A stretch of DNA of 34,792 nt, taken from positions 1 to 34,792 of IMG/VR virus record IMGVR_UViG_3300043399_000364; one strand, 5' to 3'. Within the stretch, counting starts at the first letter, position 1. Each line of letters starts with the position of its first letter. Below the pieces are notes generated by a model. The model worked only from the letters and a program-made list of their open reading frames with translations. It was not told where the DNA came from and did no database searches. This DNA is from a virus. Shown here piece after piece: positions 853 through 34,792 of the stretch. The position numbers were made by a program, and so were the translations under genes.

Positions 853-1162
853 TGGCCACCTCGTAGTTTACGTGATATATCGCTCCGGTCGGAACGTACT
901 TCAATTCCGTTCCTTGCGTGAACACCATCAATTTTAGCATAGCCTTCACTTCGGTATGGTTTATCTTGGCACCTTTATTGAATCCATATTCGTCAGGATC
1001 GCTGACAACCTCCCACAAGGCTTCATCCAGTTGCTTGCGGAACTCCGACTTCCAGTTAGTCTGACGGCGTTCTATCACACGCACTTCCGCGCCGCAATCC
1101 ATACAAAAACGTCCATTGTTGATTATCTTGCCACAGCTGCTGCACTTGTTATAGAACTTCAT
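806..1162 (-). CDS. zinc-ribbon protein, 118 aa
   Basis: The N terminus carries a compact zinc ribbon: CSSC at residues 8-11 and CMDC at residues 20-23. A charged helical middle and a short basic C terminus follow. The start overlaps the helicase stop by 4 nt (ATGA) and has an AGGTGG Shine-Dalgarno. No enzymatic motif is visible. Its position between helicase and MazG suggests a nucleic-acid binding accessory factor, but that is inference from context only. Confidence 0.7.
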   Translation of the reverse strand: MKFYNKCSSCGKIINNGRFCMDCGAEVRVIERRQTNWKSEFRKQLDEALWEVVSDPDEYGFNKGAKINHTEVKAMLKLMVFTQGTELKYVPTGAIYHVNYEVANANKRISGQKHTNAE

Positions 1163-2433
1163 ACGCCCACCTGATTTATGAATTTAGTCTTATCGCCCAG
1201 GTAGGTAAGGTGTATCCCGCCCACCGGTCCATTGCGTTGCTTGGCCACAATCACTTCGGTATCCATCGCGCCATCCTTGCGGTGTAAGAATATGACATTG
1301 TCGGCATCCCGCTCCAACGCGCCTGATTCACCCAAGTCGGTCAGGATAGGCCGCTGGTCATCCTGCGCCCGTTGGTTGGCGGCGCGGGATAGCTGGGCGG
1401 CGCATACAACGGGGATATTGAATTCCTTGGCGATCTGCTTCAACCCGCGGCTGATGCTTGCCACTTCAAGATGCCGTTGCTCCTTGTGTTCATCCGCGCC
1501 AGCCAGTTGGAGGTAATCCACGAACAGAACATCCACCTTGGGCAATCTGCGTATCTCGGAACGGATCTTGTTGGGGGTAATCCTTGGCAGGTCATTCAGG
1601 TATAGCGGGTACTGGTCGGAGGTAAGGCTGCCCATTGACTGGTAGTACTTATCCCAGTCGACTTTACCGATGCGTTGGTCGTGGAAGTTGATACCTGAAT
1701 CCATTGACATAAACCGCATTGCGACCTGGTCCGAACCCATCTCCAAGCTGAAGAACAGCATATGCTTGATCTCCCGCTTCATAATGTTGTACACAAGGGA
1801 GGCAAGGAAGGCCGTCTTGCCAACACCAGGGCGGGCGGCGATGATGGTGAAGTCGGGGGCGGATAATCCCACGATCAGCTTGTCAAGGTTCGTGAATCCC
1901 GTCTTGATATAGCCAATATGACCGCTGGCGGCCTGCTGGGTTTTATCGTGCGCTCGTGACATCGCTTCGGAGAATGTGATGGTGCTTGTATCCACGGATG
2001 CGGAATCAATCGTGCCCAACTTGGAGGTGATGTCGTGGACCACATCGGAGGGGTTTCTACCGCGCGTCACCCAAGTCGCAGCATCATTCAGAATCGCCAT
2101 AATTTGCCGATTTTTGGCGTTTTTATTGATGATGCCGATATAGTTGCCATAATGCTCCGGAATGGCGTCATCCCGCAGGTAAACCAAAGCGGCGCGGCCA
2201 TTGATGGAGGGGGCGTCGTGCAGCGCGATGTCCTTCAGCTCCAGCTTGTCGCCGATGGTAACGGTGTCGATATTGATGGACTCGTTGTGGAGATCCAGCA
2301 TTGCCTGATAAATCGCGCGGTAAGGCTGCCAAGTAAAATCTTCAGGCTTGACACTTGCGGATACGTTTCCGAAGTTCTTGGGCGCTTTTAGTATCGCCCC
2401 CAGCAGGGCTTGCTCTACTTTACGTTCTTCCAT
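1159..2433 (-). CDS. dnaB: DnaB-type replicative DNA helicase
   Basis: Ring helicase that would unwind the phage fork. The N-terminal DnaB domain spans about residues 1-105. The RecA-like core has Walker A RPGVGKTA at 201-208, the SLEM motif near 229-232, Walker B LFVDYLQ at 303-309, a DnaB-type QLSR region near 347-350 and KQRNGP near 398-403. Length 424 aa is close to the usual ~450. AAGGAG lies 9 nt before the ATG. No primase or polymerase gene is visible in the window, so host enzymes probably supply them. Confidence 0.96.
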   Translation of the reverse strand: MEERKVEQALLGAILKAPKNFGNVSASVKPEDFTWQPYRAIYQAMLDLHNESINIDTVTIGDKLELKDIALHDAPSINGRAALVYLRDDAIPEHYGNYIGIINKNAKNRQIMAILNDAATWVTRGRNPSDVVHDITSKLGTIDSASVDTSTITFSEAMSRAHDKTQQAASGHIGYIKTGFTNLDKLIVGLSAPDFTIIAARPGVGKTAFLASLVYNIMKREIKHMLFFSLEMGSDQVAMRFMSMDSGINFHDQRIGKVDWDKYYQSMGSLTSDQYPLYLNDLPRITPNKIRSEIRRLPKVDVLFVDYLQLAGADEHKEQRHLEVASISRGLKQIAKEFNIPVVCAAQLSRAANQRAQDDQRPILTDLGESGALERDADNVIFLHRKDGAMDTEVIVAKQRNGPVGGIHLTYLGDKTKFINQVGV

Positions 2434-2898: not shown

Positions 2899-3699
2899 CT
2901 AATCCAACCAATTAAAATTCTTGTAGGGGTCGTTATCCACCTTGCGCCGCGCCACGATCCCGTTCAGGGTATTCGTCAACGACATCGGGCTGGTAATGGT
3001 GTAGCCGTTCATCGCCTGAACCGCGGACTTTATGTCATCCACCTTCACACCGAGGTTATTCCAATCCTCGAAGGCGCCAACCCACTTCTTCTGTTGACTG
3101 GTCATATACTGTAATCCCGTTGCTTCGGTAAAGGCTCTTCCGAATTCCTGATATTGCTCCGGTAACAGTGTATCGGTTCTCTTCTTGGCTTTATCGGATA
3201 ATCCGATCATATCCAGTACCTGCTTGTTTACGTTTTCGTAATCGGTTTCGGTCAATGATTTAATGATGGTTAAATGATGGTTTAAGTCAAGTGGCTTGAC
3301 TACCTCTGGTAAAGTGGCTTGACTACCCTGGTCAAGTGGCTTGACTACTCCACCGGAATTCTGGGCCGGATTATTTTTTAACGTTGGTGTAAAAGCGTTC
3401 AAGTTCAGCTGGTACATATTCGTTTTATGCTTATCATTTACACCAACAACTTCAAGGATCCCGTTGTATTTTAGGGCTTCGATGGTATCTATAACGCCCT
3501 GCCTTGATAGCGCTGTTTTTACTTCAAGCCGAGATAACCCAGGGTAGGCGATGCCATCATCATTGCAATGGTCGGCAATAGCCAACAATAAAAGCTTGAC
3601 GGTGGATGCCTTCGCGGTACGCTTCTGGCCGTTCTTTACATATTCGAAGTCGCCTGGGAATTCCGTCTCGAATACGGCTGACATAATCTTGATGCTCAT
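2899..3699 (-). CDS. winged-HTH replication initiator-like protein
   Basis: A 266-aa protein whose residues ~25-90 form a winged helix-turn-helix domain (TAKASTVKLLLLAIADH... LSRQGVIDTIEALKYNGIL). A low-complexity linker (~105-145) and a C-terminal helical domain (~175-260) follow, similar in layout to phage initiator or helicase-loader proteins of the lambda O/DnaD kind. The linker DNA contains three palindromic 15-bp repeats beside A/T-rich direct repeats, a typical place for a phage origin. GGAGGT precedes the ATG, which overlaps the upstream gene by 4 nt. The initiator role is inferred from domain layout and the embedded repeats. Confidence 0.72.
   Translation of the reverse strand: MSIKIMSAVFETEFPGDFEYVKNGQKRTAKASTVKLLLLAIADHCNDDGIAYPGLSRLEVKTALSRQGVIDTIEALKYNGILEVVGVNDKHKTNMYQLNLNAFTPTLKNNPAQNSGGVVKPLDQGSQATLPEVVKPLDLNHHLTIIKSLTETDYENVNKQVLDMIGLSDKAKKRTDTLLPEQYQEFGRAFTEATGLQYMTSQQKKWVGAFEDWNNLGVKVDDIKSAVQAMNGYTITSPMSLTNTLNGIVARRKVDNDPYKNFNWLD
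3262..3345. repeat. candidate replication origin: iterons plus A/T-rich repeats
   Basis: GTCAAGTGGCTTGAC occurs at 3286-3300 and 3331-3345, with a one-mismatch copy (GTAAAGTGGCTTGAC) at 3309-3323. Each is a palindrome of 6-bp arms around TGG, and the copies start 23 and 22 bp apart, about two helical turns. Directly left lie two A/T-rich direct repeats (AATGATGGTTA and AATGATGGTTT, 3262-3283), a plausible unwinding element. The middle copy lies in a different reading frame from the other two, so the repeat is conserved as DNA rather than as peptide. Confidence 0.7.
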
Positions 3700-3983
3700 A
3701 CTACCTCCATAACTTGGTACACATTCCCGAACTCCCGAATCAATCCCGCCTCCACCAGCTCTTTTTTAGCCTGGCTGACCATACCGGTAGACATCTTGCA
3801 TATCATCGCCAATGTCTTCACGGACTGGTAGCACAACCTGTTCTCGCCAGCTACACGGCGGAAGTGGATATATAGCCTGAAGGCGTGCGGGCTTAACATC
3901 ATATCGTCCACAATATTCGGCACCATCGTAAAGTTCGTCCGCGGGCTGGCTTCGTCTATTATCCGGTACTGTTCGTCTGTCAT
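3696..3983 (-). CDS. helix-turn-helix DNA-binding protein, 95 aa
   Basis: Small protein with a clear winged HTH in its second half (about residues 50-90, VKTLAMICKMSTGMVSQAKKELVEAGLI), like the N-terminal domain of phage replication initiators. It sits directly upstream of the larger initiator-like gene and overlaps it by 4 nt, so the two may act together at the origin or as regulators. GGAG lies about 9 nt before the ATG. Alternatives are a transcriptional regulator of this operon. Confidence 0.72.
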   Translation of the reverse strand: MTDEQYRIIDEASPRTNFTMVPNIVDDMMLSPHAFRLYIHFRRVAGENRLCYQSVKTLAMICKMSTGMVSQAKKELVEAGLIREFGNVYQVMEVV

Positions 3984-8729: not shown

Positions 8730-8893
8730 ACGACAAGCCGATCTACCTGGGCGATGGCGTATATTTACAACCGCAAGACTACCAGCTGCGCCTGTTCACC
8801 AGCGATGGCATCACCGGCACCAACAACGTCTACCTCGACCCCTACGTTGCCGAAGCATTGTACGAGCAGCTGAAGGTATGGTTGAACAAGTAA
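8726..8893 (+). CDS. hypothetical protein, 55 aa
   Basis: The ATG at 8726 overlaps the preceding TGA. The protein starts MNDKPIYLGDGVYLQPQDYQ and ends in a helix; it matches the common small phage protein layout with a beta-hairpin 'YLGDGVY' start and a surface carbohydrate-free composition. An unshifted frame would fuse it to the upstream gene, but its start and overlap argue it is separate. No function known. Confidence 0.62.
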   Translation: MNDKPIYLGDGVYLQPQDYQLRLFTSDGITGTNNVYLDPYVAEALYEQLKVWLNK

Positions 8894-34613: not shown

Positions 34614-34792
34614 TAAGACCCCGCAAGGGGTCTTATATCTTCGGAATCGTTTCCGATACTGTTATCTCCAGCCTTGGGTTATCCTTGTCATCCCCGCGGT
34701 ACACGTGCAATTCAACCACCTGGTTGTCATTCTTGTATAGCACATCCTGAAGCGCGTCCAGGCATTCCTTCAGCGGTCCGTCAATGTCGCCA
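34614..34792. repeat. terminal direct repeat, right copy
   Basis: Second copy of bases 1-179. It truncates the RusA gene, whose complete copy is at the left end. Joining the ends gives a unique length of 34,613 bp and places the metallophosphoesterase gene tail-to-tail with the RusA gene across a shared terminator. Confidence 0.9.

Follow-up and report, generated by a model that had tools for sequence, protein, structure and literature searches.

The three iterons inside the replication initiator gene of this phage very probably (roughly 0.9) form its lambda/P22-type origin for theta replication, at which iteron binding, DNA melting and DnaB loading would proceed as proposed below. The DNA analysed here, referred to as the window, is the whole 34,792-nt stretch of the IMG/VR virus record IMGVR_UViG_3300043399_000364. 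Its ends share 179-nt direct repeats (1-179 and 34614-34792) with one mismatch; the window is therefore probably a complete phage genome with redundant ends. Sequence evidence supports the array and its conservation at the DNA level, the covariation of the array with the recognition helix, the A/T-rich sequence beside the iterons, the encoded linker and the order of initiator and DnaB. The arrangement itself is already known from lambda and P22, to which the window adds one more such origin.

The array consists of three 15-bp semi-palindromic repeats, two perfect and one with a single mismatch, inside the gene of a 266-aa O-like initiator (2899-3699, minus strand). On the plus strand, GTCAAGTGGCTTGAC is found exactly at 3286-3300 and 3331-3345 and with one mismatch at 3309-3323, and a perfect copy can be seen directly to contain two 6-bp inverted arms flanking 3 bp. 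Read on the minus strand in gene order, iteron 1 (3331-3345) and iteron 3 (3286-3300) are exact copies of GTCAAGCCACTTGAC and encode VKPLD, while iteron 2 (3309-3323, GTCAAGCCACTTTAC) carries the mismatch and lies in another frame, where it is read as SQATL. The start-to-start spacings are 23 and 22 bp. The array begins 354 nt into the gene and occupies its nt 355-414, downstream of the part for the DNA-binding domain. No other site with fewer than two mismatches to the iteron exists in the whole window. Only four 12-mers, which overlap, are present three times within 120 bp of each other; every one comes from the array, and such a 12-mer appeared in 0 of 200 dinucleotide shuffles of the window. 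Three iteron cores were reached by none of 2000 synonymous-codon shuffles of the gene, and two or more by four. Coordinates, spacings and shuffles thus bear out the original observation of three copies, one of them mismatched, at 22-23 bp, as well as the frame change it had noticed in copy 2.

A pattern scan of viral contigs for the iteron pair retrieved six stretches, five inside initiator genes and one (L005) outside. The latter was dismissed as a chance occurrence, with no open reading frame longer than 240 nt across the pair on either strand. L006, L004 and L009 lie on the contigs of L003, L010 and L011, respectively, so that the iteron is present in five contigs besides the window. L003, L010 and L011 were independently retrieved by protein alone, and each contains three iteron copies. 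The window and the five contigs together hold 20 copies, with all three frames in use. These were gathered with the core pattern, and agreement within the core is therefore a product of selection by the scan; at the pattern-free positions, 18, 19 and 19 of the 20 copies agree (A before the core, A and C after it). Recurrence in five other contigs, the differing frames and the synonymous shuffles all argue for the earlier proposal that the array is selected as DNA.

Intragenic repeats at this place are widespread among related initiators. A protein-alignment search yielded 61 viral loci; in 59 of them, all except L045 and L067, the gene contains one or more closely repeated 9-mers. Clustered at 70% identity, these 61 loci plus the window, L007, L008, Vibrio phage 1.036, lambda and seven genome loci amount to 73 genes in 47 clusters. 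In 40 of the 47 clusters, lambda among them, the observed repeats were reached by two or fewer of 200 synonymous shuffles; lambda's annotated iterons are recovered by the same test. Repeats are weak or missing in the other seven: L015, L040 and L044, where 10, 59 and 5 of 200 shuffles reached the observed repeats, and L045, L067, L071 and L078, where they are absent from the gene (L045 and L078 are short, with 77 and 71 aa). The check proposed earlier, whether relatives lack the repeats, therefore did not refute the origin reading. With lambda excluded, distances of 22 and 23 bp between repeats are the most frequent (20 clusters each), followed by 17 (14 clusters) and 45 bp (13 clusters). The 17-bp distance, which recurs beside 22/23 bp in L020, L041, L064 and others, differs from the two-turn spacing by about half a helical turn.

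The initiator matches two replication initiation profiles, PHROG 1032 (E 8.9e-16) and the O-like PHROG 391 (E 1.3e-11), with its N-terminal part only (aa 1-130 and 1-146, respectively). AlphaFold predicts a winged helix-turn-helix (wHTH) domain at aa 1-100 (pLDDT 92-98), a disordered linker at about aa 105-150 (pLDDT 51-55 for most of it) and a helical C-terminal domain at about aa 151-257. In this model, the low-confidence linker coincides with the part encoded by the array and the adjoining tract. All that the DNA-selected stretch thus specifies in the protein is a flexible linker joining the wHTH to the C-terminal domain, which would explain why the protein tolerates this stretch. By Pfam the protein is not a member of Phage_rep_O (PF04492), to which it has no match at E 0.1 or better, whereas lambda O and P22 gp18 do match this family. 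Against HTH_36 (PF13730, curated cut-off 25 bits) the window protein scores 22.8 bits, L003 34.6 and L007 28.9. A RepA_N domain is likewise without a Pfam match at E 0.1 or better, and the DnaD_N profile gives 14.3 bits, under the curated cut-off of 27, so that a DnaD-type helicase loader is not indicated. A profile search of solved-structure sequences produced six weak matches only (E 0.026 or worse), and 2vn2 is a distant match to the profile of A3 (E 0.028). For the whole model, Foldseek returned no match at E 0.001 and the VIA-align rows are mostly generic wHTH proteins. Structure matches of the wHTH include, at Z 7.5-8.0, 5kbj as well as 4pt7 and 4pql, which we take to be RepA_N-type structures; this similarity may reflect a common arrangement, nothing more. 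5kbj is of the RepA_N type (PMC7145576). The C-terminal domain has nothing credible in Pfam and no Foldseek match at E 0.001. Its model was built from a three-row alignment (mean pLDDT 77) and matches nothing clearly; helicase contact by this domain is therefore unsupported.

Covariation between protein and DNA points to the wHTH as the reader of the iterons. The test compared 74 initiators less than 75% identical in the wHTH domain; of their 2701 pairs, 147 have two or more repeated 8-mers in common. Of the 98 genes that entered the test, 54 had been retrieved through AACCATCA, a motif described below. Once identity in the remainder of the domain was regressed out, iteron-sharing pairs had an excess identity of 0.129 in helix 3, 0.058 in helix 2, 0.034 in the wing and 0.021 in helix 1, with segment null s.d. 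of 0.010-0.016. The helix 3 residual (null s.d. 0.016) is the largest of any wHTH segment tested. Among 1000 permutations, the observed value was reached by none for helix 3 and helix 2, by one for the wing and by 96 for helix 1. Since permutations leave some relatedness, a comparison restricted to pairs less than 35% identical elsewhere was added, in which helix 3 identity is 0.353 in sharing pairs (n=34) versus 0.244 in the others (n=1262). Recognition-helix identity thus covaries with iteron sharing, which indicates, as a correlation, that the wHTH reads the iterons. This pairing of iteron and recognition helix across dozens of uncultivated phages could make origins and initiator specificity predictable from sequence.

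On the 3' side of the iterons lies an A/T-rich tract (3246-3285), a candidate DNA-unwinding element and, with 72.5% A+T, the most A/T-rich 40-mer of the gene; elsewhere in the window some 40-mers reach 80%. A tract adjoining the iterons is a feature of lambda/P22-type origins. Within it are direct repeats, AACCATCATT, spaced 11 bp. They contain two minus-strand copies of AACCATCA, a candidate second origin element: copy 1 at 3275-3282, read as N-H, and copy 2, 11 bp further, at 3264-3271, read as T-I. A/T-rich direct repeats beside the iterons inside the initiator-like gene had been noted earlier and are confirmed by this pair. Taken alone, the AACCRTCA pair of the window is not significant, as 141 of 2000 synonymous shuffles contain two or more.

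Across relatives, the motif stands out. When 8-mers were counted in 45 clusters, AACCATCA ranked first with 28 clusters versus 7.6 expected from synonymous shuffles, in which no 8-mer whatsoever was present in more than 20 clusters. Two or more copies are present in 15 clusters versus 1.0 expected. AACCRTCA is found in 35 of 44 clusters (lambda excluded), with 67 copies in sense and one in antisense. All copies lie between 300 and 540 nt into the gene. The motif sits 3' of the iterons with a spacing of 10-13 bp, and its density is 2.0 per kb in the gene versus 0.04 per kb on each strand of the flanks. It is contained in 22 of the 25 iteron-type groups that have protein-retrieved members.

A scan of viral contigs for three copies of AACCRTCA found at least 120 stretches, of which 80 loci were examined. 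In 54 of these the copies lie in sense within an open reading frame matched by the initiator HMM, and all 54 initiator frames have some direct repeat upstream, a count made without shuffle control. The spacings within the 54 loci are 9 bp (1), 10 bp (26), 11 bp (50), 12 bp (22) and 13 bp (17). Control motifs fell within initiators in 0 of 49 stretches (reversed octamer 0/15, scrambled octamer 0/34). The other 26 examined loci are without an initiator HMM match; by eye, L084, L140, L157, L129, L149, L100, L088 and L112 are truncated initiators or initiators of another kind, and many of the rest consist of low-complexity coding sequence. The AACCATCA arrays of L088 (about 7161) and L112 (about 11992; positions on the motif strand) lie in HMM-negative frames that resemble other replication proteins. 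The motif may thus cross initiator families. In bacterial genomes, the three-copy pattern was present in 0 of 299 and 2 of 194; both matches are simple tandem repeats, and the reversed control pattern was found in one of these genomes too. As a universal signal AACCATCA was rejected, because it is absent from lambda, P22 and TP901-1. In or just 3' of the repeat region, these three phages (L070, L200 and L199, respectively) have short ACAAAA-type repeats at intervals of about 13-14 bp within their A/T-rich tracts, as seen partly by eye; these repeats are perhaps an analogous element.

By analogy with plasmids, AACCRTCA may be a strand-capture or unwinding element that helps to open the duplex. 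RK2 oriV has 13-mers in an unwinding tract beside its iterons, a proposed analogue of the candidate AACCATCA repeats of the window; to our knowledge, the RK2 oriV repeats do not lie inside the initiator gene. In iteron plasmids, Rep proteins attach to one strand of the repeats in the unwinding tract, and in RK2 the Rep protein TrfA binds the 13-mers in single-stranded form (PMC4081077); this precedent suggests a possible strand-capture role for AACCRTCA. The odds appear about even that phage initiators of a large class, despite their varied iterons, have an iteron-independent signal of this kind in common: AACCRTCA direct repeats about one helical turn apart, nearly always on the coding strand, 3' of the iterons and kept as DNA in three frames, which would serve as a strand-specific capture or loading site and fix both the opening point and the strand of helicase entry. 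Its reader would perhaps be a shared part of the initiator or a host protein. No description of AACCRTCA was found in the literature searched, with the motif letters included, which is weak evidence of absence since subscription papers were mostly outside this search. Strand opening is called a still open question in the title of PMC5043065. If AACCRTCA is a strand-capture element, duplex opening by such initiators becomes testable via a short defined motif.

Downstream of the initiator gene, with two short open reading frames in between, the window encodes a replicative DnaB-type helicase of 424 aa (1159-2433, minus strand; Pfam DnaB_C, E 4.3e-73). This initiator-then-helicase order recurs in L003, L007 and the L009/L011 contig, which also have a downstream DnaB homologue, and initiator-helicase (IH-type) modules are named as typical in PMC11131426. 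Just upstream, and overlapping the start of the initiator gene, lies an open reading frame for a stand-alone HTH_36 protein of 95 aa (3696-3983, minus strand; E 7.1e-9, 35.8 bits versus the cut-off of 25), a possible regulator or accessory binder. GC skew, suggested earlier as a check, lends the array no support: the cumulative-skew minimum is at 8845, with no turn at 3.3 kb. The minimum away from the array may reflect coding orientation.

From the precedents of lambda, P22 and plasmids, we infer the following course of initiation. The wHTH of the 266-aa initiator would bind the three semi-palindromic iterons, whose near two-turn spacing would stack the complexes along one face of the DNA. The stacked complexes would strain the adjoining A/T-rich tract on the 3' side, and the AACCATCA repeats could help to melt it or hold one of its strands. 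The phage-coded DnaB would then be loaded at the opened tract, where theta replication would start. For lambda and plasmids, these steps are backed by PMC7466680, PMC5703833 and PMC5043065.

Other readings of the array have been weighed. As a peptide repeat, for instance a flexible linker built of VKPLD units, it would be repetitive DNA only as a by-product; two of the three copies do share a frame and the linker is disordered in the AlphaFold model. Yet copy 2 lies in another frame and no synonymous shuffle gives three cores, so peptide repetition is not the sole cause. The repeat distances in the relatives agree: modulo 3 (0:1:2) they are distributed 73:64:77, so that multiples of three are not favoured, as would be expected of sequence retained as DNA rather than as peptide, and a spacing of 22/23 bp places the iterons in changing frames. 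Peptide repetition as the sole cause is thereby refuted, and this reading is left with a very small probability. Equally improbable is a recent, functionless tandem duplication. Such an event could produce copies of this kind, but the identical core is found in diverged initiators, and most related clusters have an array of their own at the same place with a different iteron sequence; its prediction, relatives without arrays at this place, was tested and not seen.

A somewhat better, though still unlikely, candidate is an operator array through which the initiator or the 95-aa HTH protein mainly represses its own operon, replication starting elsewhere. Semi-palindromic sites are what a dimeric repressor would be expected to bind, the neighbouring upstream gene encodes a stand-alone HTH_36 protein, and the array is not marked by GC skew. 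However, an operator would have no need to lie some 350 nt within the gene, where lambda and P22 have their repeats too, or to be flanked on one side by the oriented repeat tract that most relatives have. Autoregulation could coexist with origin function.

The lambda/P22-type origin within the initiator gene, in line with the lambda-type reading proposed originally, is supported by the intragenic position, the 3' A/T-rich tract and the downstream DnaB. In P22 (genes 18/12), an O-like initiator likewise has the origin inside its gene, with the annotated rep_origin 352 nt in versus 354 nt in the window, repeats at 20/24 bp versus 22/23 bp, and a DnaB-type helicase of its own encoded downstream. 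P22 differs from the window in that gp18 belongs to Phage_rep_O and in its 3' tract, which contains 14-bp ACAAAAGACAATA repeats instead of AACCATCA. In lambda, the iterons lie mid-gene in O (annotated 39034-39118, spacings 20, 24 and 23 bp), the first starting 348 nt into the gene, and the A/T-rich tract is on their 3' side as in the window; the iteron sequence is another one and the AACCATC motif is absent. Lambda has no DnaB of its own and recruits that of the host via its P protein. The mid-gene location of iterons and A/T tract in O is described in PMC7466680, and recruitment of DnaB by P is named in a reference title in PMC5043065. Among plasmids, the RepA_N type (pSK41, and pPR9 with an HTH_36 N-terminus) shares with the window a wHTH initiator and an origin within rep; the window protein differs in lacking a RepA_N Pfam match and a clear structural match of its C-terminal domain. 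The pSK41 ori lies inside rep, where the origin-encoded part is the linker between two domains, as stated in PMC5703833.
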